64,000 bases of DNA, from NCBI GenBank assembly GCA_002841625.1, contig PHAG01000002.1, positions 372,001-436,000 of the forward strand, given 5' to 3'. Each line of letters begins with the position of its first letter. Position 1 is the stretch's first letter. Below the pieces are notes generated by a model that saw nothing but the letters and a program-made list of their open reading frames with translations, was not told the origin of the DNA and did not search any database. The position numbers were made by a program, and so were the translations under genes. Positions 1 to 19,399 of the stretch are shown in pieces. This DNA comes from Firmicutes bacterium HGW-Firmicutes-1 (GTDB lineage Bacteria; Bacillota; Clostridia; Lachnospirales; Vallitaleaceae).

Positions 1-165
1 ATTGTAATCTTATTGATTTATTTGTTTTTTATAGGAATATCGATATATTGTTTGGTTTTATTTGTTAAATTGGCAAGGAGAGGAATACTAGCACTTGATA
101 TTTATATTTTACAAAACAAACAAAAAGAATCTCAAGAAGAAAATAATAATAAACTGCGAGATTAA
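1..165 (+). CDS. C-terminal end of a membrane protein (partial)
   Basis: An open frame runs from the first base to a TAA at 163-165, giving the last 54 residues of a protein whose start lies outside the window. The visible part opens with a strongly hydrophobic stretch of about 25 residues (Ile, Leu, Phe, Tyr, Val), continues with a basic segment (KLARRG) and ends in a polar Gln/Glu/Asn-rich tail. That pattern fits a final membrane helix followed by a short cytoplasmic tail. No family can be named from so short a fragment. Confidence 0.55.
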   Translation: MVILLIYLFFIGISIYCLVLFVKLARRGILALDIYILQNKQKESQEENNNKLRD

Positions 166-324
166 AGAACATATTTTAGTGTGCTTTTATATAGAAAGTA
201 TGATTTTATTAATATCGGATTTTAAATCATAAATTTTATAAAGCCTAATTTATTTAAAGTAAGGGAGATAAGTCATAAGACGAACTAATAATGTCATTGA
301 GGCTATTAGAAAAGGGAAAAATAT

Positions 325-432
325 ATGAAGATTTAAAAGTTGTTTGCAATATTGATAGTATTAATAACTATAAGTGGATGTAGTGGTGGAGCTCTATCGG
401 AGTGTGAGATAGAAAAACTTGAAAGAATATAA
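325..432 (+). pseudogene. Lipoprotein gene remnant with early in-frame stop
   Basis: ATG at 325 is followed after two codons by TAA at 334-336. The same frame then continues as KLFAILIVLITISGCSGGA and stops at 430-432. MKI plus this stretch would be a typical lipoprotein signal peptide with an ISGC lipobox, so one nonsense change appears to have broken a lipoprotein start. The frame ends about ten codons after the lipobox, so the mature protein is missing too. A TTG at 340 could in theory restart translation, but no good ribosome-binding site precedes it. I infer gene decay. Confidence 0.45.
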
Positions 433-715
433 TAAAAAATTTGTGTGAAATTTAGTCAAATTATAAAATATAATTCGAGTATTGTGATAATCGGTTGGCG
501 ATTTTTGTTGATTGTATTATAAAAGATGATATAATTATTTTATGATATTATTAATGAGAGGAACTGTCATTATACGATGATATTAGGAGGTAAATGAGTG
601 TAAGTACAGTTATGGTGACAGTAAATAAGGGCCATGCAGATAAAATTATTTGAAGGAAAAGAACTTATGTTATGCATAAGAAAATGTTAGTAATAATTCT
701 AAAGAGGGAGAAAAG
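433..715 (+). other. Non-coding stretch with an SD-led 19-codon fragment
   Basis: No convincing gene is present. AGGAGG at 585-590 precedes ATG at 594 (only 3 bases away), which opens a 19-codon frame (MSVSTVMVTVNKGHADKII) ending in TGA at 651-653. The phrase VNKGHADKII resembles the N-terminal part of small antibiotic-biosynthesis-monooxygenase-like proteins, but nothing after the stop continues the family. It is best read as gene debris or a leader peptide. The rest is AT-rich with no recognisable site. Confidence 0.25.
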
Positions 716-722
716 ATGATTT

Positions 723-1712
723 ATGGGTAGAGCAGGTGGAGCAGGTGGTGGAGGTGGCCGCGCTGGCGGCGGTCATTCATTTGGTGGAGGGCGTTCTGGA
801 GGAGGAAGAAGTTCATTCAGTAGTGGAAGAAATAGTTCATCAAGCGGGTCAAGTGGAAGCCGTTTAGGGAGCTCAGTTGGACGTAAACTAAGGGGAAGCA
901 ATTCATCTGGTGGGTTTTTTGGTTCGACTAGGCGGTCAAGAGTAAATAATGTAAATGATAATAGTACATATGATAATCGAAGATTTTATAATAATGGTTG
1001 TGCAACAACAGGATGTGGATGTCTTTCAATAATATTTGCTATAATTATGGCAATATGTACATTAGGATTTGTTATGATTTTAACCTTTGTAAAAAGTGAA
1101 AATGTAACCACATCAACGATAGAAAGAGAACCATTACCAAAGGGTTCAGTGAATGAAACAGAATATTATACAGATAATTTGGGATGGATAGGTAACAAAA
1201 CAGAATTAGAAAAAGGAATGAAAAATTTTTATATAGCAACTGGAGTACAGCCTTATTTATATATTACTGATAATGTATACGGAGAACATATCACTGATGT
1301 TAATGAGTTAGCAGCGTTTGCAGAGTCATTATATCAAGAGTTGTTTACCGATGAGGCTCATATACTGTTAGTCTTTTATGAATATAATGGTGACTATGCT
1401 GATTATTATTTAAGTGGTTCTCAAGCAAAAACTGTTATTGACAGAGAAGCAGGTGATATATTATTAGACTATATTGATAAATATTATTATAATGATAATA
1501 TGACAGATGATGAGTTCTTTAGCACTGTTTTTGATAAAACGGCTTCAAGAATAATGACAGTAGAAAAATTACAATGGCCTATACTTTGGTCAATACTGGT
1601 TATATTAATTATTGTACTGGTCTTAATTATTTTCATAAAAATTCGTGCAACACAAAAAATTAAAAAAGCTGAACAAGATGCCAGGATATTAGAAACTCCA
1701 TTAGAACAATAG
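723..1712 (+). CDS. Gly/Ser-rich two-helix membrane protein, unknown function
   Basis: The 329-residue product has three parts. Residues 1-60 are low-complexity Gly/Ser/Arg (GGGGGRAGGGHSFGGG and so on). A short Cys-containing segment (CATTGCGC) leads into a membrane helix near residues 100-122. A soluble domain of about 160 residues precedes a second helix near 280-302 and a charged tail. The middle domain (LYITDNVYG, ILLVFYEYNGDYADYYLSGSQ) is reminiscent of TPM-type domains, but I cannot confirm this. AGAGGGAG at 703-710 is better spaced for an ATG at 716, which reads only MIYG-stop; the ATG at 723 overlaps that micro-frame. The gene stands alone and ends at a terminator. Confidence 0.7.
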   Translation: MGRAGGAGGGGGRAGGGHSFGGGRSGGGRSSFSSGRNSSSSGSSGSRLGSSVGRKLRGSNSSGGFFGSTRRSRVNNVNDNSTYDNRRFYNNGCATTGCGCLSIIFAIIMAICTLGFVMILTFVKSENVTTSTIEREPLPKGSVNETEYYTDNLGWIGNKTELEKGMKNFYIATGVQPYLYITDNVYGEHITDVNELAAFAESLYQELFTDEAHILLVFYEYNGDYADYYLSGSQAKTVIDREAGDILLDYIDKYYYNDNMTDDEFFSTVFDKTASRIMTVEKLQWPILWSILVILIIVLVLIIFIKIRATQKIKKAEQDARILETPLEQ

Positions 1713-1720
1713 CAGGAAAT

Positions 1721-1752
1721 AAAAGCCTGTAGATAATCTGCAGGCTTTTTAA
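1721..1752 (+). terminator. Rho-independent terminator
   Basis: AAAAGCCTGTAG and CTGCAGGCTTTT form a 12-bp stem with one G.T pair around a short loop, followed by a T-run. It lies 8 bases after the stop of the Gly/Ser-rich membrane protein gene. Confidence 0.85.
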
Positions 1753-1940
1753 GACATTTTTTTTGGTAGGGTTGTTTACAATTTTTCATTTAATAAATCT
1801 AATAAGTATTTTCTACTGAGTTTGGGGTATTAATGCTAATGCCTTTAACTAACAAGGTTTTTGGCTGGCAGCTTGTGTTGAGTAAAGTAAACAATAAGTT
1901 CATCACCTAATTGATATGAAATTGAATATGGAAAACAACA
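1753..1940. other. Intergenic stretch, no gene seen
   Basis: This AT-rich stretch between two hairpins holds no open frame with a ribosome-binding site. The word CTAACAAGG near 1847 resembles the outer box of the repeats found after 3.8 kb, but no matching right arm follows. Confidence 0.4.
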
Positions 1941-1980
1941 AAAGAGATGAAGTGCACACCGTGCAATTCATCTCTTTTTC
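1941..1980 (+). terminator. Strong hairpin with T-tract before the DUF6179-like gene
   Basis: AAAGAGATGAAGTGCAC pairs with GTGCAATTCATCTCTTT with one mismatch around a 3-base loop, and a T-rich tract follows. It lies about 100 bases upstream of the next gene, so it either terminates read-through or acts as an attenuator in that gene's leader. The A-rich left side would also allow termination on the - strand. Confidence 0.65.
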
Positions 1981-2079
1981 TACTTTTATTATACTACAAA
2001 TTCGGGTAAAATACTAGTCTTGAAATCCATAAGAATAAGTTGTAAAATTGGAATCCAATACAGGATTGGAGGTGGATGA

Positions 2080-2934
2080 ATGTATTTTGGGATAGCAGAA
2101 TTACTTCCGTTAATGAAAGACCTATCAGAAAAGTATACCAGTAAATCAAGCACATCTATTCCATATGAAACAGCACAACAGTTAATGGAGGCAATCCTTT
2201 ATTGTATTGCTGAGAATGAATGTTATAGTGAAAATTCTGAAAAGGGTCAAAACATAATAGCCAATCAAAATGCTACTGTTTCAGCGAGAGAGGCCTATGA
2301 TCGAGGGTATAAATTAGTTGTTCAGAAAATAGTAACTTCACAAAATCTCTATAATGAAATGATTGTAGGGTTTAATGATTTTAGTAATAGAGCATATTAT
2401 GATGCTGTAACCAAGCAAATACCTATGTTTTTTAGATGGTATGATGCAAGATTTTGTCCACAGAACAATATAGTTGAGTTTGATTATCCTTTATTGATCC
2501 AAATGCAGAAACATCAAGGAATAGATGCTATTTATGAATATGTAAAGTGTATAAAGTATGAACAACAGTTTATACAACAATTTCAAGAAAAATATGTAAA
2601 AGAAATTTTAGAGTTATCGTATGAAGGTTATGAGGAACTTTTCATAAACTTATGTAGTCCTTTATTAAAAAAGGTTCTTGGAAATATGTTACTTGACCTG
2701 CCATTACAGAAAACTAAGCTAGAAGTAGCAGACTATAAAAAAATGTCAATCATCGTGAAAGAAAATAGTGAAGACATACTATTAGAAAAATTGTATGAAC
2801 TGTTGAAATTATTAATAGATAATGTTTATCAGGGAAATATGGAAATGTTATATTATTTGCAAAATGGCATACCGGACATTGTAACAGAACTTGTAAATGG
2901 AGCTGAAAATAATTGTTTAGAGCATATTATTTAA
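2080..2934 (+). CDS. DUF6179-like protein
   Basis: This 284-residue soluble protein has GGAGGTG ideally placed before its ATG. An N-terminal LLPLMKDLSEKYT segment is followed by VPYETAQQ-like wording (IPYETAQQLMEAILYCI) that I associate from memory with DUF6179, a clostridial family of unknown function. The body is mostly charged, probably helical, with no membrane segment or catalytic motif. The next gene starts 12 bases after the stop, and the two families are usually found as neighbours, so they probably work together. No biochemical role is known to me. The DUF name comes from recall rather than a search. Confidence 0.65.
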   Translation: MYFGIAELLPLMKDLSEKYTSKSSTSIPYETAQQLMEAILYCIAENECYSENSEKGQNIIANQNATVSAREAYDRGYKLVVQKIVTSQNLYNEMIVGFNDFSNRAYYDAVTKQIPMFFRWYDARFCPQNNIVEFDYPLLIQMQKHQGIDAIYEYVKCIKYEQQFIQQFQEKYVKEILELSYEGYEELFINLCSPLLKKVLGNMLLDLPLQKTKLEVADYKKMSIIVKENSEDILLEKLYELLKLLIDNVYQGNMEMLYYLQNGIPDIVTELVNGAENNCLEHII

Positions 2935-2946
2935 GAAGGTGAGCAC

Positions 2947-3507
2947 ATGGATGAAATGTATGAGCTTATACAGTTGGGGCAACAGAAATATGAAATGCAG
3001 GGAATTATTGCTTGTAATGAAAAAACCAAGAAATTTGGTTTGGTTTTAACAGAGGAAGAAGTCAAGTCCTTGATGGTCTGTCGGAAAGATTCCTTAAAAG
3101 AGAATCAACGAATTGAGTTTGGCGAAGGTATTCTGGCAGATCTTATTTATGCGTTCTGCGATTCCCAGTACTTGAGCCAGGACAATTATGTAGATACATT
3201 AGCACAATTACAAGAAATCTTTTATTTATACAAAAATGAATCTCAGGACGAATTGACAGATGCTGAATTGATTGATTTTATGAGAAATCAATTTGAAGAA
3301 ATCTGCTTTGGAGATGTAGAATATTTGAGAGGAACTTGTCTTGAACGGTTTGCCAGAGCTATTCGCTCAGGCTATCAATGTCAGGCGCAGCGCAGATTAC
3401 GGGATGAGTACACCTTAAAGGATGTAGAAAATGAATATAATAAGTTGTCGGAAGAAACAAGATGGGACTATGAAGTGTATAAAATGAAACTGGAAGATAT
3501 GTATTGA
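2947..3507 (+). CDS. DUF6323-like protein
   Basis: This 186-residue protein is translated from AAGGTGAG just upstream of its ATG, 12 bases after the DUF6179-like gene, so the two form an operon. It contains IIACNEKTKKFGLVLTEEE near residues 19-37 and a conserved-looking YAFCDSQYLSQDNYVDTL segment near residues 72-89. Both match my recollection of DUF6323. It is acidic and soluble, with no signal peptide. Function is unknown; the pairing is the only functional clue. No clear terminator follows it. Confidence 0.65.
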   Translation: MDEMYELIQLGQQKYEMQGIIACNEKTKKFGLVLTEEEVKSLMVCRKDSLKENQRIEFGEGILADLIYAFCDSQYLSQDNYVDTLAQLQEIFYLYKNESQDELTDAELIDFMRNQFEEICFGDVEYLRGTCLERFARAIRSGYQCQAQRRLRDEYTLKDVENEYNKLSEETRWDYEVYKMKLEDMY

Positions 3508-5775: not shown

Positions 5776-5890
5776 GGTTTGGGCATCGCCTAACAATATG
5801 TTGCCAACATTCATAGCCTTGAAGTTATGTAAATTTCAAGTGTTTGAGCTATGAACGTCGGCAACACGGTAACGTTATATGACATTGCGC
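5776..5890 (+). repeat. attC-like site A (full)
   Basis: The left outer box GCCTAAC (5788-5794, fits RYYYAAC) is followed by AATATG and the inner arm TTGCCAACATTCATAGC. An inner CTTGAA/TTCAAG stem caps the structure. The right inner arm GCTATGAACGTCGGCAA is followed by a spacer and GTTATAT (5874-5880) as the right outer box. The inner arms pair at 15 of 17 positions, and the two mismatches are A.C on this strand, which become T.G wobbles on the other. This is the architecture of an integron attC site of about 95 bp. Confidence 0.65.
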
Positions 5891-5980
5891 ACTAGAGTAA
5901 TAATGAGTTATATTAATTTAAACAAAACAACTTGCAATTATATTGTAAAGTTGTAAATTTCAAGTCATAGGGGGGGATTC

Positions 5981-6364
5981 ATGTTGTTTTATTATTTTTA
6001 TTTAACTTTTTATATTGGCACATTATCTTATATTATTGCCAGAAATATTTATTTATTTTATAAAGACAAATATAATCCATATGTTTTTAAAAAGGGAGAG
6101 AATGAGTTACCTTTTATTATTAAGTTTATATGTATTTTGGGTATGAATATTGGAGGATATTTTTTTGTAAATAGCGAGAAATCATTAGTTATCATACTAA
6201 ATATTTTCTTGTGGTATTCATTCTTTCTTGTTATGAGTACAGTAATATTAAATTACCTATCTTATAAGAAAAATAAAGACCAAAAGATAATTCTACATAC
6301 TGCAATAATGAGTGCAACAATTATTATTATTTCATTAATTATGTGGAGGTATGTTGGGAGGTAA
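5981..6364 (+). CDS. Small membrane protein, unknown
   Basis: The 127-residue product has about four hydrophobic helices (near residues 4-24, 46-60, 66-88 and 104-121) separated by short Lys-rich loops. A GGGGGG run shortly before the ATG can serve as a ribosome-binding site. It starts about 107 bases after the right box of site A and is followed 66 bases later by a lipoprotein gene on the same strand; the two share one repeat-bounded unit. No family is recognised. Strongly AT-biased codon use resembles neighbouring units. Confidence 0.6.
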   Translation: MLFYYFYLTFYIGTLSYIIARNIYLFYKDKYNPYVFKKGENELPFIIKFICILGMNIGGYFFVNSEKSLVIILNIFLWYSFFLVMSTVILNYLSYKKNKDQKIILHTAIMSATIIIISLIMWRYVGR

Positions 6365-6430
6365 AATAAGTTGGATTGTTCTTGTAGGTGACATATTCTA
6401 CTATATTATTTATTAATTGAAGGAGTTTTT

Positions 6431-6853
6431 ATGATGAAGAGGTTAATTATTTTAGCAATTTTGATATGTATATTTATCTCAGGATGTAAGAAAGATGTAA
6501 TGTCAGTAGAACCTTTGGATTTTCATGTAGCAATAGATATGGGAATAGAACAGTACACTCCATCAATGTCTTCCGTTCCTGGTTTGCCACTTTTGGTTAA
6601 TGTAAATTTATATAATAAAGAATTAGAATTAGAACTACATTTTAAATGTGAACAAGGCAATTTTTTGTTATGGAATGCAGACAGTAATATTGAACAATTA
6701 AATTCAGAATACATATGTGATTTTAATGATTTGAATTTATATTGGTCTCCGAGTGAATCAACTGATCATAGTTCAGATCAAAATATGCTTACAGTATCAA
6801 TAATTGAAAAAAATACAGGAGATATATTTGGAAAAGGCAATATAAGATTATAG
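6431..6853 (+). CDS. Putative lipoprotein, unknown
   Basis: GAAGGAG precedes ATGATG. The 140-residue product begins with a lipoprotein signal peptide (basic MMKRL, hydrophobic core, lipobox ISGC with Cys at residue 19). The mature part is acidic, with pairs of beta-strand-like segments (LPLLVNVNLYNKELELELHFKC) and no recognised domain. It would be anchored on the outer face of the membrane. It is the last gene before site B, about 120 bases downstream. It may act with the small membrane protein upstream; this is inferred only from co-location. Confidence 0.65.
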   Translation: MMKRLIILAILICIFISGCKKDVMSVEPLDFHVAIDMGIEQYTPSMSSVPGLPLLVNVNLYNKELELELHFKCEQGNFLLWNADSNIEQLNSEYICDFNDLNLYWSPSESTDHSSDQNMLTVSIIEKNTGDIFGKGNIRL

Positions 6854-6965
6854 AAGAAAACGGAGTTTATTATTATAAAGACAAAGAATATATAGTGATA
6901 CAGTGATTAATAAAAAAATAAGCAACAAATATATTGGGTTTATGTATTCTAAAGTTAATGTATAA

Positions 6966-7080
6966 CACATCACCTAACAGGTTATTGCCAACATTCATAA
7001 CCTTTAGAGTTGTTAAGCAAGAAGTTTGTGAGCTTTGAACGGCCGCAACAACGAGAACGTTAGCTGACATTGCACACTAG
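6966..7080 (+). repeat. attC-like site B (full)
   Basis: The left outer box is ACCTAAC (6972-6978), then AGGTTA and the inner arm TTGCCAACATTCATAACC. The right arm TTTGAACGGCCGCAAC is followed by a spacer ending AAC and by GTTAGCT (7059-7065). The left inner arm is identical to that of site A over TTGCCAACATTCATA. The sequence after the right box, GACATTGCACACTAG, repeats that after site A at all but one base. Confidence 0.65.
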
Positions 7081-7214
7081 TTTAAAAGTATTAATGTTAA
7101 TTTATCACAATAGAGGTATAATAATAAGAAAACACAAAGCAATATTATATTAAATGGTACTATTGTATGAAAATTCATAGCAATACATTAAAAGGTAAAG
7201 AAAGAAGGGTGTAT

Positions 7215-7634
7215 ATGAAGCTACTTGATAATATAGATAGTATTATGTTTGCTCCATGTGGTATGAATTGCATAGTTTGCTATAGGCACTTAAAACCGAA
7301 AAAATCTTGTAAAGGTTGTTTGTGTAGTGATGAAGATAAACCAGAACATTGTAGGAAATGCAATATTAAGGATTGTGTAAAAGTAAAAAGAATTACATAC
7401 TGTTTTGAATGTGGAGAGTTTCCTTGCAAACAGATAAAGAATCTTGAAAAAAGTTACATTAAGAGATATGGAATTAGCCTTGTAAAAAATAGCGAGACTG
7501 TACGAAGTGAGGGATTAGAATTTTTTATGTTAATGGAAAAAGAACTTTGGACGTGTAAGAAATGCAGCGGTATTATATCTTTACATGACTCAGAATGTAG
7601 TGAATGTCATTTGAAAATCCGTAGTTCAACATGA
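7215..7634 (+). CDS. DUF3795 family Cys-rich protein
   Basis: From the ATG at 7215, preceded by AGAAGGGTG, the product is 139 residues. It starts with FAPCGMNCIVC, followed by KSCKGCLC, HCRKCNIKDC and CFECGEFPC, the Cys pattern of DUF3795 (predicted zinc-binding, unknown role). A C-terminal second zinc-ribbon-like pair (CKKCSG, CSECH) is an extension. An in-frame ATG at 7167 lacks a ribosome-binding site, so I prefer 7215. It is the only gene between sites B and C and is followed by site C after about 100 bases. Confidence 0.75.
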   Translation: MKLLDNIDSIMFAPCGMNCIVCYRHLKPKKSCKGCLCSDEDKPEHCRKCNIKDCVKVKRITYCFECGEFPCKQIKNLEKSYIKRYGISLVKNSETVRSEGLEFFMLMEKELWTCKKCSGIISLHDSECSECHLKIRSST

Positions 7635-7733
7635 AAACAATCTTTGGATATAATTCTTATATAATCAAATATTATTATATTATATTAAGTAATATTAAGT
7701 TATTTGTGGTTGACTGGTAGTTATCGTGTGTAA

Positions 7734-7845
7734 TGCAACATCAGCTAACAAAATATTGCCTAAAATCATCAACATTAAGATTTGAGAATTGGTAAGTATG
7801 TGAGCTGATGAACATCGTTAACACGTAACGTTATATGACATCCCC
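7734..7845 (+). repeat. attC-like site C (full, diverged)
   Basis: The left outer box is AGCTAAC (7743-7749), then AAAATA and the inner arm TTGCCTAAAATCATCA. The right arm is GCTGATGAACATCGTTAAC with a spacer, then GTTATAT (7830-7836). The inner arms pair less well than in A or B except over TCATCA/TGATGA. Bases 7734-7749 are the inverse of 7059-7074 (the start of the same unit, at site B) at 14 of 16 positions. Confidence 0.6.
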
Positions 7846-8157
7846 CTCTAGAAAAAGAGAAAAAGAACATGTATTTCAATTATTGATGGGAAGAACTTTT
7901 AAGGCTATTAAAAAAACTATTGCGTTGCTTGAGAAGAAATAATGGCCTTATTTATAAGACCATCAATGAGGAATTTTAATTTATTGTAATACAACATGTC
8001 GATATTCCTAAACAATCGTAGATAGGACAGTATCGAATGGTGCCTTCAATAATCATAGAAACACCAATAACCATCAATGCCGAGCATAGAAGTCGCTATT
8101 AAGTTTAAAGTGGGGGAAATAGTGAACTAGATTTTCAAATAAAGTGTTTCCGTATGT
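7846..8157. other. Repeat-bounded unit with no recognisable gene
   Basis: The stretch between sites C and D has no open frame of useful length with a ribosome-binding site on either strand; the longest + frame near 7940 is about 15 codons. Such gene-less units are known among integron cassettes. It could encode a small RNA or be the remains of a gene. Confidence 0.4.
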
Positions 8158-8232
8158 AACGACATATAACAAAATTGCCAACATTCATCAGCCTTCAAGG
8201 CTGAAATTTATGGCTAATCCTTATGACAGATA
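8158..8232 (+). repeat. attC-like site D (left arm intact, right arm decayed)
   Basis: GACATATAAC (8161-8170) is followed by AAAA and TTGCCAACATTCATCAGCC, the same inner arm as in sites A, B and G. A perfect local hairpin TCAGCC-TTCAA-GGCTGA follows. The expected right arm (GTCGGCAA...GTT) is missing; CTTATGACA at 8220-8228 may be the decayed right outer box. The left box ATATAAC is the exact inverse of the right box at site C (GTTATAT). Confidence 0.5.
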
Positions 8233-8296
8233 ATGGCGTGTGATAAAATAAATTATTCATGATATTGATAATAGAAAAAGAGAGAGGTGTATCTAT

Positions 8297-8743
8297 TTGA
8301 AGTTAAGAAGTGCATTGATAGATGACTTGAAAAATATATATACTTTGATTTGTAAGCTTGAAGAATCAAATATTGATATCCAAGAATTTAGCCAAATCTA
8401 CTTAGATAACTTAGCTGATCAAAATGTACATTACATTGTTGCAGAAGATAAGGGTAAATTAATTGGATTTATAAGTCTACATATTCAAAAATTATTGCAT
8501 CATGTAGGTAAAATATCTGAGATACAAGAATTATTTGTTGTTGAGAGCTATCGCAGGCTTGGAATCGGGAATAAGCTATTAAATGAAGCAAAGCAAGTTT
8601 CATTGAAGAATGGATGTATTCAAATTGAAGTATGCTGTGATAGAAAACGGGCAATTAGCCATTTATTTTATTTGAGTCAAAGTATGAAGAAAACTCACTA
8701 TAAATTTACATGTGACTTGAAACTAAATCAATTAATTAAGTGA
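8297..8743 (+). CDS. GNAT family N-acetyltransferase
   Basis: GAGAGGTG precedes a TTG start. The 148-residue product has the GNAT fold order: an N-terminal RSALIDDLKNIYTLI helix region, HYIVAEDKGKLIGFISL beta strands, IQELFVVESYRRLGIGNKLLNEA with the acetyl-CoA-binding R-R-x-G-I-G-x-x-L loop near residues 86-95, and a final CCDRKRAISHLFYLSQSM segment. It transfers an acetyl group from acetyl-CoA to an unknown amine. The C-terminal Y-x-F-T-C-D-L ending is typical of small clostridial GNATs. It is the only gene of its unit and ends about 20 bases before site E. Confidence 0.85.
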   Translation: MKLRSALIDDLKNIYTLICKLEESNIDIQEFSQIYLDNLADQNVHYIVAEDKGKLIGFISLHIQKLLHHVGKISEIQELFVVESYRRLGIGNKLLNEAKQVSLKNGCIQIEVCCDRKRAISHLFYLSQSMKKTHYKFTCDLKLNQLIK

Positions 8744-8763
8744 TTGGCAGTTTTCGCATTACA

Positions 8764-8800
8764 TGTCACATAACAAGTTGTACAACATTGCTCACCACAA
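8764..8800 (+). repeat. attC-like site E with the hairpin deleted
   Basis: The left outer box ACATAAC (8768-8774) is followed by only two bases and then GTTGTAC (8777-8783), the same right box as in site G. The downstream sequence ACATTGCTCACCACAAAAAAC matches the downstream flank of sites A, B and G. The whole inner hairpin is therefore absent, as if deleted between the two boxes. Confidence 0.5.
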
Positions 8801-8861
8801 AAAACAAAACATCTGTTCTAAATTGAGAAGAAAGAATTATTTATATAATCTTGAAAGGAAG

Positions 8862-8949
8862 TGAACTATATCAGAAATAAGCGAAGTAAATACTCGATGC
8901 AATAATGACAGCATATGTACCGAGTAATGAGCTGTCGTTATTTATTGCA
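8862..8949 (+). promoter_or_regulatory. Possible leader peptide and attenuating hairpin for the methyltransferase
   Basis: GTG at 8862, right after GAAAGGA, opens a 14-residue frame (MNYIRNKRSKYSMQ) ending in TAA at 8904-8906. The end of this frame lies in the left arm of a hairpin: TGCAATAA...TGACAGC (8898-8912) against GCTGTCGTTATTTATTGCA (8931-8949). A second small pairing, TACTCG/CGAGTA (8891-8896, 8921-8926), overlaps it. Such leader-in-hairpin arrangements precede inducible resistance genes. The ribosome-binding site spacing is short, so this is a hypothesis. Confidence 0.3.
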
Positions 8950-8991
8950 CCTATCTATTTTAAAAATATTTAAAAGAAAAGGAGCAATATT

Positions 8992-9750
8992 ATGAACGAA
9001 AAACAGTTAAGAGAACAATGGCTACAAGATGAAAAGATAAGTTTTCAAGGATGGGATTTTTCATATCTGAATAAAAGATGGAAGCACGAAAAAATACCAT
9101 GGGATTACGGAAAAATTGTGCATCGATATTTGAAAAACGATATGCAATTATTGGATATGGGAACTGGTGGTGGTGAATTTTTGCTATCTTTACATCATCC
9201 ATATGATAAAACTTCAGTTACTGAAGCATGGCAACCTAATGTAGATTTATGTGTAAAGAAATTGAAACCACTTGGGATATCTGTCAGACAGATATTTAAT
9301 GATTTCTGTATTCCATATGATGATAATAATTTTGACTTTGTAATTAATCGGCATGAAGCTTACGATTTGGATGAGGTAAAGAGAATACTAAAGACTAATG
9401 GATTATTTATTTCTCAACAAGTGGGTGGATATAATAATAGACCTCTATCTGAAAGATTAATACCTAATTTTACGCCGTTGTATCCTGATTTTGATTTGAA
9501 AAATGAAGCTATTAAGTGGGAAAAAGCAGGATTCGAAGTTATTTACAAGGATGAATGCTTTTCAAAACTATTCTTTTATGATGTTGGAGCAATTGTATAT
9601 TTTGCGAAGGTAATAGAATGGGAATTCCCTAACTTTTCAGTAGAGACCAATTTTCAGCAATTGATAGAATTACAAAAGCTATTGGAAGTGAATGGCTACA
9701 TAGAAAGTATTGAACATCGTTTTATCATTGTTTTGAGAAATATTCAATAA
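8992..9750 (+). CDS. Class I SAM-dependent methyltransferase
   Basis: AAAGGAG precedes the ATG. The 252-residue product carries motif I (LLDMGTGGGEF, residues 53-63) and a motif-II-like acidic position (VTEAWQPN). Later, NFDFVINRHEAYDLDEVKRILKTNG and GLFISQQVGGYN represent the post-motif strands of a Rossmann methyltransferase. The N-terminal W-D-F-S-Y-L segment is typical of a small Firmicutes subfamily of unknown substrate. It would methylate a small molecule or RNA using S-adenosylmethionine. It is the sole gene of its unit, and a repeat half-site (site F) begins immediately after its stop codon. Confidence 0.85.
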   Translation: MNEKQLREQWLQDEKISFQGWDFSYLNKRWKHEKIPWDYGKIVHRYLKNDMQLLDMGTGGGEFLLSLHHPYDKTSVTEAWQPNVDLCVKKLKPLGISVRQIFNDFCIPYDDNNFDFVINRHEAYDLDEVKRILKTNGLFISQQVGGYNNRPLSERLIPNFTPLYPDFDLKNEAIKWEKAGFEVIYKDECFSKLFFYDVGAIVYFAKVIEWEFPNFSVETNFQQLIELQKLLEVNGYIESIEHRFIIVLRNIQ

Positions 9751-9751
9751 G

Positions 9752-9788
9752 ATGGACGCCGGCAATAACGAAATCGTTTTGCGACGAA
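9752..9788 (+). repeat. attC-like right half-site F
   Basis: GGACGCCGGCAATAACGAAATCGTTTTGCGAC matches the right arm of site G (GAACGTCGGCAATATGCAAACGTTG) in layout: inner arm GCCGGCAA, spacer, then GTTTTGC (9776-9782). No left arm exists, because the methyltransferase stop codon directly precedes it. The left half was probably lost when the gene's 3' end was joined to it. Confidence 0.45.
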
Positions 9789-9904
9789 CTTTACTGGTTT
9801 ATTGTTTATCAAAATTTAGCATATGCAAGTTTGTTGATGCAGAATCAATTAGGATAAACTATTAAATAAATATATGTATATTAAGTAGTCTTTAATAAGG
9901 GATA
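9789..9904. other. Short gene-less unit between sites F and G
   Basis: About 120 bases with no open frame carrying a ribosome-binding site. It is bounded by the right box of F and the left box of G, whose sequences GTTTT and AAAAC are mutually inverse. Confidence 0.35.
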
Positions 9905-10020
9905 TGCTATGAAAACAATACATTGCCAACATTCATCAGTTTTGGTGATAATTAAATAAAGGAAAATTGAGCTGATTGAACGTCGGCAATATGCAAACGT
10001 TGTACCATATTACACACTAC
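9905..10020 (+). repeat. attC-like site G (full)
   Basis: The left box TGAAAAC (9910-9916) is followed by AATACA and TTGCCAACATTCATCAG. The right arm CTGATTGAACGTCGGCAA is followed by a spacer and GTTGTAC (9999-10005). The inner arms pair perfectly except for one bulged base and the same two A.C positions seen in site A. The flank CATATTACACACTAC resembles those of sites A, B and E. Confidence 0.65.
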
Positions 10021-10081
10021 AAAAAACATCAATTTGTTTATAATTGCGATTTATTAATTTGTTTTGAATGGAGGTGTACTT

Positions 10082-10498
10082 ATGGATATATTGAAACAAC
10101 CGTTATTTAAATACATAGACTGTATAGAATTTTATGTTCCAAATATACAACAGGGAATTGAATATTATTGTAATAGTCTTGGATTGAGAGTTATATGGAA
10201 ATCTGATACAGCTGCTGGTCTTGGGATGAGCGAAGGAATAACAGAAATTCTCATCCAAAATGAACGTAATTTTCAATCAGTTGATATTAAAGTAGATTTG
10301 GTAACGGATGCAGTAAAAGCGATAGAAAAGGCGGGAGGTCAGATTGTATATGGGCCTTTTGATATAAAAATTGGAAAATGTGCAGTTGTAAAAGACCCTT
10401 GGAACAATCAGTATGTGATTTTAGATACTACAAAAGGCACGTATATTACTGACAATGAGGGAAATATTATTGGACAAAATGAACCTTCTAATGAATAA
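10082..10498 (+). CDS. VOC (glyoxalase/bleomycin resistance) family protein
   Basis: GGAGGTG at the right spacing selects the ATG at 10082 over an upstream in-frame ATG at 10064. The 138-residue product contains IEFYVPNIQQGIEYYCNSLGLRVIW, the first beta-alpha-beta module of the vicinal-oxygen-chelate fold, and VVKDPWNNQYVILDTTKG, the closing module with its D-P-x-x-N motif. Such proteins bind a metal and act as lyases, dioxygenases or antibiotic-binding proteins; the substrate is unknown. It is the sole gene between sites G and H. Confidence 0.85.
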   Translation: MDILKQPLFKYIDCIEFYVPNIQQGIEYYCNSLGLRVIWKSDTAAGLGMSEGITEILIQNERNFQSVDIKVDLVTDAVKAIEKAGGQIVYGPFDIKIGKCAVVKDPWNNQYVILDTTKGTYITDNEGNIIGQNEPSNE

Positions 10499-10544
10499 TA
10501 ATTAGTAATGCGATAAGTTCACAAGTTCCTATGTGTCGCAGTAT

Positions 10545-10590
10545 TTGTCAGCGCTAAATAAACTTTATTAAAAGCGAGCGTTAGACGACA
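10545..10590 (+). repeat. attC-like right end (site H), diverged
   Basis: An inner hairpin (CGCT-AATAA-act-TTATT-AGCG with internal A bulges) is followed by GTTAGAC (10580-10586), a perfect GTTRRRY box, and GACATAATTC, similar to the flanks of other sites. No RYYYAAC box matching the start of its own unit was found upstream. It is the right-most recognisable site, and no further site is seen before the XerS-like gene. Confidence 0.4.
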
Positions 10591-10663
10591 TAATTCATAA
10601 GTAAATAATAACCAAGTGGTTGGAATTTGGAAAAAAAATCGAAAGAGGTTTGAAAGGTGGAAA

Positions 10664-12459: not shown

Positions 12460-12554
12460 ATTGGGGTGATTTTAACCTAAAACAGGGGTTTCTCATCGTT
12501 ACTACTCACAAAGGATATTATTTATTTGTGATAACTTTCAGGAGGTTAAATTAT

Positions 12555-16515: not shown

Positions 16516-16827
16516 TTATTTCAATCGTTTTTTTTCTAGAGGTAATTCAATCGTTTTATTGTCTTTTGATGGTCTGTATAAAACAATTTTTCGCCCTATT
16601 TGCTGTACAACATCTGAACGGGTTCTTTCTGCAAGAATATATGAGATTTCTTTCGGATCTTCTATGCAGTTTTTTAGAACATTGATCTTGATTAATTCTC
16701 TTGCCTCAAGAGCATCAGAAATACCTTCTGTTACTTCAGGGCTAAGTCCTGCTTTTCCAATTTGATAAATTGGTTCTATTAAATTAGCTAAGCCACGTAA
16801 ATAAGCCCTTTGTTTACTTGTTATCAT
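16516..16827 (-). CDS. yhbY: YhbY family RNA-binding (CRM domain) protein
   Basis: The start at 16827 is preceded by AGGAGAAACCT; an upstream in-frame start overlaps obgE and is less likely. The 103-residue protein begins MITSKQRAYLRGLANLIEPI, followed by YQIGKAGLSPEVTEGISDALEARELIKI. The latter contains the G-K-x-G-L loop of the CRM fold, which binds ribosomal RNA during large-subunit assembly. It starts 10 bases after obgE, another assembly factor. Confidence 0.92.
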   Translation of the reverse strand: MITSKQRAYLRGLANLIEPIYQIGKAGLSPEVTEGISDALEARELIKINVLKNCIEDPKEISYILAERTRSDVVQQIGRKIVLYRPSKDNKTIELPLEKKRLK

Positions 16828-16837
16828 AGGTTTCTCC

Positions 16838-18124
<1,287 letters not shown>

Positions 18125-19315: not shown

Positions 19316-19399
19316 ATGGGCACCTCCTCATTTTAAGACTCGCCGAAGCTTGGTGGCTTATTAGCACTTAAACCTATTCGCGCGGTTATACCGTCTTTT
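19316..19399 (-). promoter_or_regulatory. L21 leader (structured 5' UTR of rplU)
   Basis: Between the predicted promoter and the rplU start, the - strand reads GGTATAACCGCGCGAATAGG, then hairpin-forming GACTCGCCGAAGCTTGGTGGC regions and finally GAGGAGGTG. Position, length and the GGTATAACCGCG wording fit the ribosomal-protein L21 leader family, thought to mediate autoregulation. Identification is from memory. Confidence 0.6.

Follow-up and report, generated by a model that had tools for sequence, protein, structure and literature searches.

The stretch of DNA considered here (the window, 64,000 nucleotides from Firmicutes bacterium HGW-Firmicutes-1, contig PHAG01000002.1, positions 372,001 to 436,000 of the forward strand) raises the question of why a unit built around a gene for a DUF3795 protein should begin and end with sequences that match each other in inverse orientation, and of what kind of element such a unit could be. 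The unit sits within a series of imperfect repeats that extends from about 5788 to 10600. Each repeat is made up of a box that ends in AAC, a left stem arm that is conserved (TTGCCAACATTCAT), a loop that varies, a right stem arm (ATGAACGTCGGCAA) and a box that begins with GTT, and integron attC sites have this same layout (R'', L'', L', R'). Four of the sites (A, B, C and G) are full, whereas D, E, F and H are worn. The features of the cluster are the following:

5788..5880, + strand: attC-like site A (R'' GCCTAAC, R' GTTATAT), from folding and profile search
5981..6853, + strand: genes of cassette A-B, two ORFs without a family match
6972..7065, + strand: attC-like site B, from profile search
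7059..7077, + strand: left end arm of the DUF3795 cassette (R' box plus outer arm), GTTAGCTGACATTGCACAC
7060..7830, + strand: DUF3795 cassette, from its presumed G^TT crossover to the next one, as given by the site positions
7167..7634, + strand: cassette gene for a DUF3795 protein of 155 aa (Pfam PF12675, 6.4e-8)
7731..7749, + strand: right end arm of the DUF3795 cassette (outer arm plus R'' box), ending in CAGCTAAC
7743..7836, + strand: attC-like site C, from profile search
8164..8245, + strand: decayed site D, with R'' and L'' kept and the right half worn (weak match of 16.7 bits, and by eye)
8297..8743, + strand: cassette gene for a GNAT acetyltransferase (Pfam PF00583)
8767..8795, + strand: remnant of site E, with R'' and R' two bases apart and the stem lost (by eye)
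8992..9750, + strand: cassette gene for a methyltransferase (Pfam PF08241)
9754..9794, + strand: remnant of site F, with only L' and R' GTTTTGCGAC (weak match, 14.3 bits)
9911..10005, + strand: attC-like site G (53.5 bits)
10064..10498, + strand: cassette gene for a glyoxalase-type protein (Pfam PF00903)
10571..10595, + strand: remnant of site H, R' GTTAGACGAC (by eye only)

The G^TT crossover of the DUF3795 cassette is inferred by analogy with integron attC sites, and the two ORFs of cassette A-B were read by eye as a membrane protein and a lipoprotein. Site D shows a gapped match to the end of site E, and the R' side of the latter is 83% like 9999-10028. A strict scan for RYYYAAC/GTTRRRY with short spacers found none of the sites of the window, and the profile search was used instead.

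The agreement of 14 of 16 bases between 7059-7074 (GTTAGCTGACATTGCA) and the inverse of 7734-7749 (GTTAGCTGATGTTGCA), described in an earlier note on this DNA, was reproduced, together with the CA/TG difference at offsets 9-10, which recurs at the same offset in the A-B unit; the total agreement of the A-B ends is only 8 of 16. When G.T pairs of the bottom strand are allowed, the ends of the DUF3795 cassette match at 17 of 19 positions. As a background, one of the 47,201 GTT...AAC pairs located 150-3500 apart in window positions 13001-64000 reaches 14/16. For the weaker pairs C-D, D-E and F-G, proposed to follow the same rule, the matches described are present. The C-D pair has GTTATATG common to both ends (11/16 overall), and the D-E pair, with a 2-base gap, agrees in 13 of 19 columns compared to 11 for the best ungapped placing tried, which is weak evidence, as the best placing was chosen among many. 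The F-G pair has GTTTT common to both ends and agrees at 8 of 16 positions. The A-B and F-G pairs are at chance level and provide no evidence when taken alone, since the mean between-cassette score is 9.05/16.

Further sites were found in the genome, a 3.95-Mb assembly of 33 contigs. Iterated nhmmer at E 0.05 over the stretches searched (C2:1-60,000, C2:360,001-392,000, C3:1-40,000, C19:1-20,000, C25 and C33) detected 74 attC-like places that read in the array direction, of which 58 scored more than 50 bits, with 45 in C2:1-45,420, 13 in C25, 5 in C33 and 11 in C2:368,000-382,000, the latter group being the cluster of the window. A covariance model built from 47 sites also produced 74 matches over the whole genome at E 1e-4, a coincidence of numbers; some of these matches are the opposite strand of one site and one is on C4. 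Neighbouring sites enclose 66 cassettes (median 726 bp), of which 60 contain an ORF of at least 60 aa, in the array direction in 59 of the 60, and among 58 cassette ORFs scanned nine matched the main GNAT family and two matched methyltransferases. No DNA match that would indicate a phage origin of the array start (C2:1-4000) was found in the phage collection. Two adjacent site regions of the array (G000:C2:15937-16142 and 16726-16940) are 94% identical, likely as the result of a recent duplication.

The permutation test suggested in the earlier note, comparing complementarity within and between units, was run on 58 consecutive pairs with readable ends, taking GTT as position 0 and leaving out pairs at least 3500 bp apart, cut by contig ends, with N or without GTT/AAC. 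Own ends matched at 5.22 of 6 core positions (3-8) versus 4.08 in shuffled pairs, and at 5.50 of 8 outer-arm positions (11-18) versus 2.68, and in neither case did any of 5000 shuffles reach the observed value. No match was found past position 18 (positions 19-23, 1.09/5 in own pairs vs. 1.15 in shuffled ones). At least 14/16 was reached by 30 of 58 own-cassette pairs, the other 28 being below it, compared to 29 of 3306 pairs between cassettes; when G.T pairs of the bottom strand are counted as matches, 18 or 19 of 19 were matched in 31 of 58 own pairs and in 64 of 3306 between-cassette pairs. The two boxes within one site (56 sites) agreed at 4.21/6 and 2.95/8, barely over shuffled values, so a cassette start is matched to its own end and not to the site that hosts it. 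The rule that links each left box to the right box of the previous site therefore holds across 58 consecutive pairs of the array. Complementarity within units no better than that between units, which would have refuted it, did not occur in this set, as own-cassette matches exceed both the shuffled and the between-cassette values; the rule is right and general.

In the linear array, the matched ends of a cassette are one gene apart, whereas in an excised circle they would flank the stem, and the two boxes would be expected, by inference, to meet in one folded attC-like site of the circular cassette. With only sequence evidence at hand, it is considered highly probable that the DUF3795 unit is a gene cassette of an integron-like system run by a tyrosine recombinase that lacks the patch of integron integrases, referred to here as patchless.

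The match between own ends carries a fixed mark. At the 11th base (position 10) of the 58 pairs, the start has A in 54 and the inverse of the end has G in 52, which makes an A.C mismatch on the top strand and, on the bottom strand only, a T.G wobble. The same A/G combination was found in 92 of 95 well-matched cassettes (at least 5/6 at positions 3-8 and at least 2/3 at 11-13). These came from eleven sets that cover ten genomes, among them Fusibacter, a Peptococcaceae genome, Arundinibacter, a Bacteroidia genome and Flavobacterium saccharophilum. Ten stretches outside the genome, in which sites were picked by hairpin alone without using the end match, showed the same match profile, with the dip at position 10 in all ten. 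The profile ends at about position 18 in G005, G007, G002 and G741 and at about 13-14 in three Bacteroidota stretches, and is uneven in Fusibacter. The outer-arm excess was clear in seven of the ten stretches (G005 twice, G007, G002, G741, Fusibacter and L146, from Bacteroidia; no more than 10 of 2000 shuffles) and was weak or lacking in L117, L154 and L095 (662, 165 and 323 of 2000 shuffles, with 8, 7 and 3 pairs).

Some outer-arm sequences are reused, as GAATCAAT in 5 of 58 cassettes, and such limited recurrence would fit an outer-arm match that is a mere by-product of cassette making, through fold-back copying of one end, without a role in recombination. This possibility cannot be disregarded, but it is rather unlikely, because copying of this kind would leave neither the same A/G mismatch in 92 of 95 cassettes nor a sharp edge past position 18. 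Given that the units end in inverted repeats of up to 19 bp, different from one unit to the next, each could also be regarded as a small transposon, with the inter-unit stretch as its target only. However, that stretch is itself conserved and folded, the units are in one orientation, the mismatch at the 11th base is fixed and the array is headed by a recombinase with an attI-like site (see below), which leaves hardly any room for a transposon. A cassette of an integron-like system remains the preferred reading of the unit.

The sites themselves have a well-paired stem. Along the 19-pair L stem of 47 sites, 95.5% of positions are paired on the bottom strand; a G.U pair occurs at one place in 46 of the 47 sites and at another in 32, and over the whole site structure 91.8% of cells are paired on the bottom strand versus 28-53% in slid controls. 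No consistently bulged stem position was found in these 47 sites (columns 28-46 and 84-102), and a one-sided gap in the stem is present in four of them. When the window sites were folded alone, the bottom strand had the lower energy in five of eight, and in two of the four full ones; the strand preference of the sites appears to rest on G.T wobbles and is not clear by folding energy. In classical attC sites, the strand is marked by extrahelical bases, according to the accessible parts of two papers (PMC8946536, PMC4792948), and the inference is that wobble pairs seem to replace them in the present sites. Stems located between genes and facing one direction might instead act in RNA, as terminators or regulatory leaders, but the strand on which the wobbles pair is the bottom one and not the sense strand of the genes, pairing that spans an entire cassette is ill-suited to an RNA stem and no Rfam family was found over the array at gathering score, so that an RNA role is very hard to sustain. 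The sole Rfam match in the window at gathering scores was a ribosomal protein L21 leader (19326-19397, minus strand). The proposal of folded cassette sites acted on by a recombinase leads to the enzyme itself.

The IntI cut-off was passed by no gene of this genome. The best IntI-like gene, at C3:215-1258 on the minus strand, encodes a protein that scored 201.9 bits against TIGR02249 (cut-off 265), and 235.3 bits against NF040815 (cut-off 220), so that it is over the cut-off of the XerA/Xer family annotated as 'site-specific tyrosine recombinase/integron integrase'. Its nearest solved structures were IntI4 (2a3v) and an archaeal XerC-like protein (4a8e), tied at E 9.2e-37. The IntI patch (I2) is missing, with IntI4 residues 186-245 (60) lying opposite 18 residues, and by reading it is also missing from the last 120 residues of 78 homologs. 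For the Fusibacter homolog, a predicted structure (mean pLDDT 83.0, pTM 0.61) gave 2a3v as first structural match (E 3.4e-15). A tree of 40 rows made with a quick method separated the patchless proteins plus five IntI from three Xer rows (E. coli XerC and XerD, and the XerD-like protein of this genome) with an SH-aLRT of 100. The tree draws IntI inside the patchless rows, but this nesting is not claimed, because a patchless clade remains compatible with the data and is not rejected (AU p 0.379). A XerC-like gene at 12528 of the window was discarded as the array recombinase: it scored only 59.8 bits against TIGR02249 and its best match was XerS, followed by XerC. Plasmids of Acinetobacter and one uncultured bacterium (H11-H30) carry a recombinase, named TnpF in one record, that shares about 50% identity with the patchless integrase across 239 residues.

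Part of the patchless family has an N-terminus that resembles the HARP domain (PF07443): 12 of 36 proteins matched it at E <= 0.1, as did 10 of 18 N-terminal pieces, with a best value of 2.3e-5. The N-terminal piece of L113 scored 23.5 bits, under the Pfam cut-off of 25, and a PDB search matched 4o66 (SMARCAL1 HARP, E 0.0054). With whole proteins at E <= 1, only two of seven matched HARP, those of Fusibacter and one Altarchaeum (L113, L110), and the recombinase of the window genome gave no HARP match in that whole-protein search. HARP domains bind DNA by structure.

The linkage between recombinase and array was followed through the contig ends. Read in the sense of the gene, C3 runs from the recombinase through an attI-like palindrome to the contig end, 99 nt into the first cassette, and the overlaps C3/C33 and C33/C25 are of exactly 99 nt each. 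The first base of C33 is the G of the GTT next to attI and its last bases are the GTTA of a site, and neither C25 nor C33 was found to overlap the start of C2. These assembly branch points at GTT(A) suggest that cassettes had more than one neighbour in the culture or were present in more than one copy, although the support is only indirect. In G005, a genome in one contig, the gene is followed by a perfect palindrome, GTTAGGCGATATAATAAC and successive cassettes in the same direction. The same order of recombinase, palindrome and array was read by eye in G723, in which the hairpin finder showed nothing and an array with short stems was found on reading. In G741, sites occur from about 3.5 kb past the gene onward, and no attI palindrome was detected by the palindrome test.

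A palindrome 5-8 nt before GTT[AG] and at most 350 nt past the recombinase was found in 31 of 92 loci, this genome and G005 included, versus 9 of 920 shuffles, and was absent by this test from the other 61; in at least one of the 31, G723, the scored palindrome differs from the one taken as its attI. The palindrome plus GTT is a candidate attI, as judged from sequence alone. A specific motif, TTTACGA...TCGTAAA, was only weakly enriched, and the general palindrome test was used instead. Of the named loci (the best 80 of 550), 42 lie within 2 kb of a contig end on the 3' (array) side and 8 do so on the 5' side, an excess that is expected if repeats follow the gene. In the 57 loci with at least 500 nt downstream, the hairpin finder counted 133 downstream sites in the gene sense and 66 on the opposite strand, compared to 39 in shuffled sequence and 28 in upstream stretches, which were of equal length at most, where available. 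No clear array past the recombinase was detected by the hairpin finder in G682, the four G734 loci, G560, G380 and G518, several of these loci being complete or long.

Several single loci showed further particularities. The contig of L102 (JACUUY010000159.1) breaks off precisely at the GTTA of the attI-like palindrome, as though the cassettes next to it varied within the sampled population. In L009/L011 joined (contig C3, 18045-19024 and 19052-20031), a 983-column stretch is present in tandem with 67% identity. The second cassette of G005 (L170 15060-15480) reads against the array and, by eye, looks like a HicA/HicB toxin-antitoxin pair.

The window cluster has worn sites without an adjoining recombinase of the patchless family, as would be expected of an ordinary CALIN, in which classical attC cassettes are left after loss of IntI and the patchless recombinase would be a bystander; CALINs are reportedly commoner than integrons with intI, from what is available of PMC9668308. 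This explanation is improbable, given that the genome contains no IntI over the cut-off, that recombinase, attI-like palindrome and array occur together in G005 and, by reading, in G723, that recombinase and array are present in G741 and joined through contig overlaps in this genome, and that the stems lack a consistently bulged base and the 19-position ends carry a fixed wobble. A system run by the patchless recombinase is thus retained as the explanation for the cluster.

A recombinase relative at E 1e-30 was found in 16 of 22 genomes of the family and at E 1e-45 in 23 of 391 genomes of the class, this genome being counted in both, and sites at E 1e-4 were detected in 11 of 22 genomes of the family. 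Canonical IntI over the cut-off was found in 2 of 398 genomes of the phylum. One genome of the phylum has two canonical IntI with the patch about 87 kb apart (G331:C1:953606-954436 and 1041228-1042172), without sites downstream by the hairpin finder, a negative result of little weight since classical integron arrays lie on the other side of intI.

The named relatives considered, the best 80 of 550, belong to many phyla and to archaea. Over these 80 loci, the chained 19-position rule gave 24 pairs in the gene sense, compared to 6 on the opposite strand and about 1.3 after shuffling. The 24 pairs lie downstream of the recombinase in nine loci, three from Nitrospirae and one each from Nitrospinae, Peptococcaceae, Altarchaeum, Fusibacter, Atribacteria and Flavobacterium; for Atribacteria and Flavobacterium, a shuffled copy once also gave two chained pairs. 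The Nitrospirae, Nitrospinae, Altarchaeum and Atribacteria loci have two to three pairs each and 0 to 2 hairpin sites, so that the archaeal and Nitrospirota cases are weaker than those of Bacillota and Bacteroidota. A stricter 10-nt chain test gave only a small excess at a chain length of 3 (down+ 12, down- 9, shuffled 3.6 of 37). Relatives followed by arrays are found in Bacillota and Bacteroidota, the signs from Nitrospirota and archaea being weaker.

As in classical integrons, the array has one orientation, an R''-L''-L'-R' layout, AAC/GTT borders and bottom-strand pairing, and is headed by a recombinase with an attI-like site, IntI4 being among the nearest solved structures. In contrast to them, the recombinase is patchless (18 residues vs. 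60 in IntI4), has a HARP-like N-terminus in part of the family and is encoded by a gene that reads toward the array, the stem lacks a consistently bulged base, and the own ends of the cassettes match over 19 positions, with a fixed wobble. The comparison with classical cassettes has a narrow basis, namely two cassettes of R388 read by eye, the ends of which match over 7 and 12 bases, neither with the A/G combination. The reversed integrases of Spirochaetes are IntIs by the patch definition, in contrast to the recombinase described here, which has no patch. The arrangement of integrase gene and cassettes in the same direction is nevertheless shared with Spirochaete integrons of the Treponema type, and typical Spirochaetota IntIs are generally in reverse orientation, as stated in the section consulted of PMC9668308.

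With respect to XerC and XerD, the patchless and IntI rows split off in the tree as described above. The CTX phage system is not known to include a cassette array. Integration of this phage by XerCD is similar in that a patch-free tyrosine recombinase acts on a folded strand, and the phage itself is described, in the part of PMC4792948 available, as encoding no recombinase.

The array with its single orientation, the stem of the bottom strand, the own-end match, the A/G combination, the order of recombinase, palindrome and cassettes and the kinship with IntI can be read from the DNA and protein sequences themselves, whereas the following steps are proposed. A cassette would begin at G^TT and close with an attC-like hairpin site. 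The patchless tyrosine recombinase, with a HARP-like N-terminus in about one third of the relatives tested, would insert cassettes at attI, made up of the palindrome, about 6 nt and GTT, directly past its own 3' end. The own ends of a cassette are inferred to pair only in the excised circle, and for this reason the bottom strand of the circle would fold into an outer arm of 19 bp, an unpaired spacer and an inner stem of 18-19 bp. The recombinase is then inferred to cut the folded bottom strand at G^TT, with the T.G pair of the outer arm and the G.T pairs of the L stem presumably marking strand and side as a substitute for the extrahelical bases found in classical attC sites. The system works like an integron, recombination itself being inferred, yet it is outside IntI integrons as defined, as neither the patch nor consistently extrahelical bases were found. 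With recombination inferred and none observed, the best reading is a patchless integron class that is sister or ancestor to IntI integrons.

A broader proposal, for which belief and doubt are about evenly balanced, is that this class is widespread, from Bacillota and Bacteroidota to archaea, with sites read through wobble marks, a private outer arm and perhaps the HARP-like domain, that IntI arose from within or beside the family and that some CALINs are served by such enzymes. An origin of IntI from within or beside the patchless family would make folded cassette sites older than the patch.

Integron surveys rely on the IntI-specific domain and attC models, as far as the method given in PMC9668308 indicates, and the large IntegronFinder 2.0 survey found a single complete integron in Firmicutes, according to the portion of PMC9024848 consulted; in the present case, a patchless relative is at the head of arrays with dozens of cassettes. 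No patchless integron or HARP-like integron integrase was found described among the open-access titles and abstracts listed, subscription papers and preprints being outside this scope, and the patchless integron class with cassette-private outer arms is put forward as new, its recombination being inferred. The private outer arm could separate a circular cassette from an integrated site and so give a direction to capture. Escudero et al. 2016 (PMC4792948), in the part available, raised a chicken-and-egg paradox of whether I2 was selected before attC or attC before I2, and a patch-free enzyme with folded cassette sites makes the question of their order directly testable. As it appears to be run by a recombinase devoid of the part thought to define integron integrases, this system may show the origin of gene-capturing integrons.
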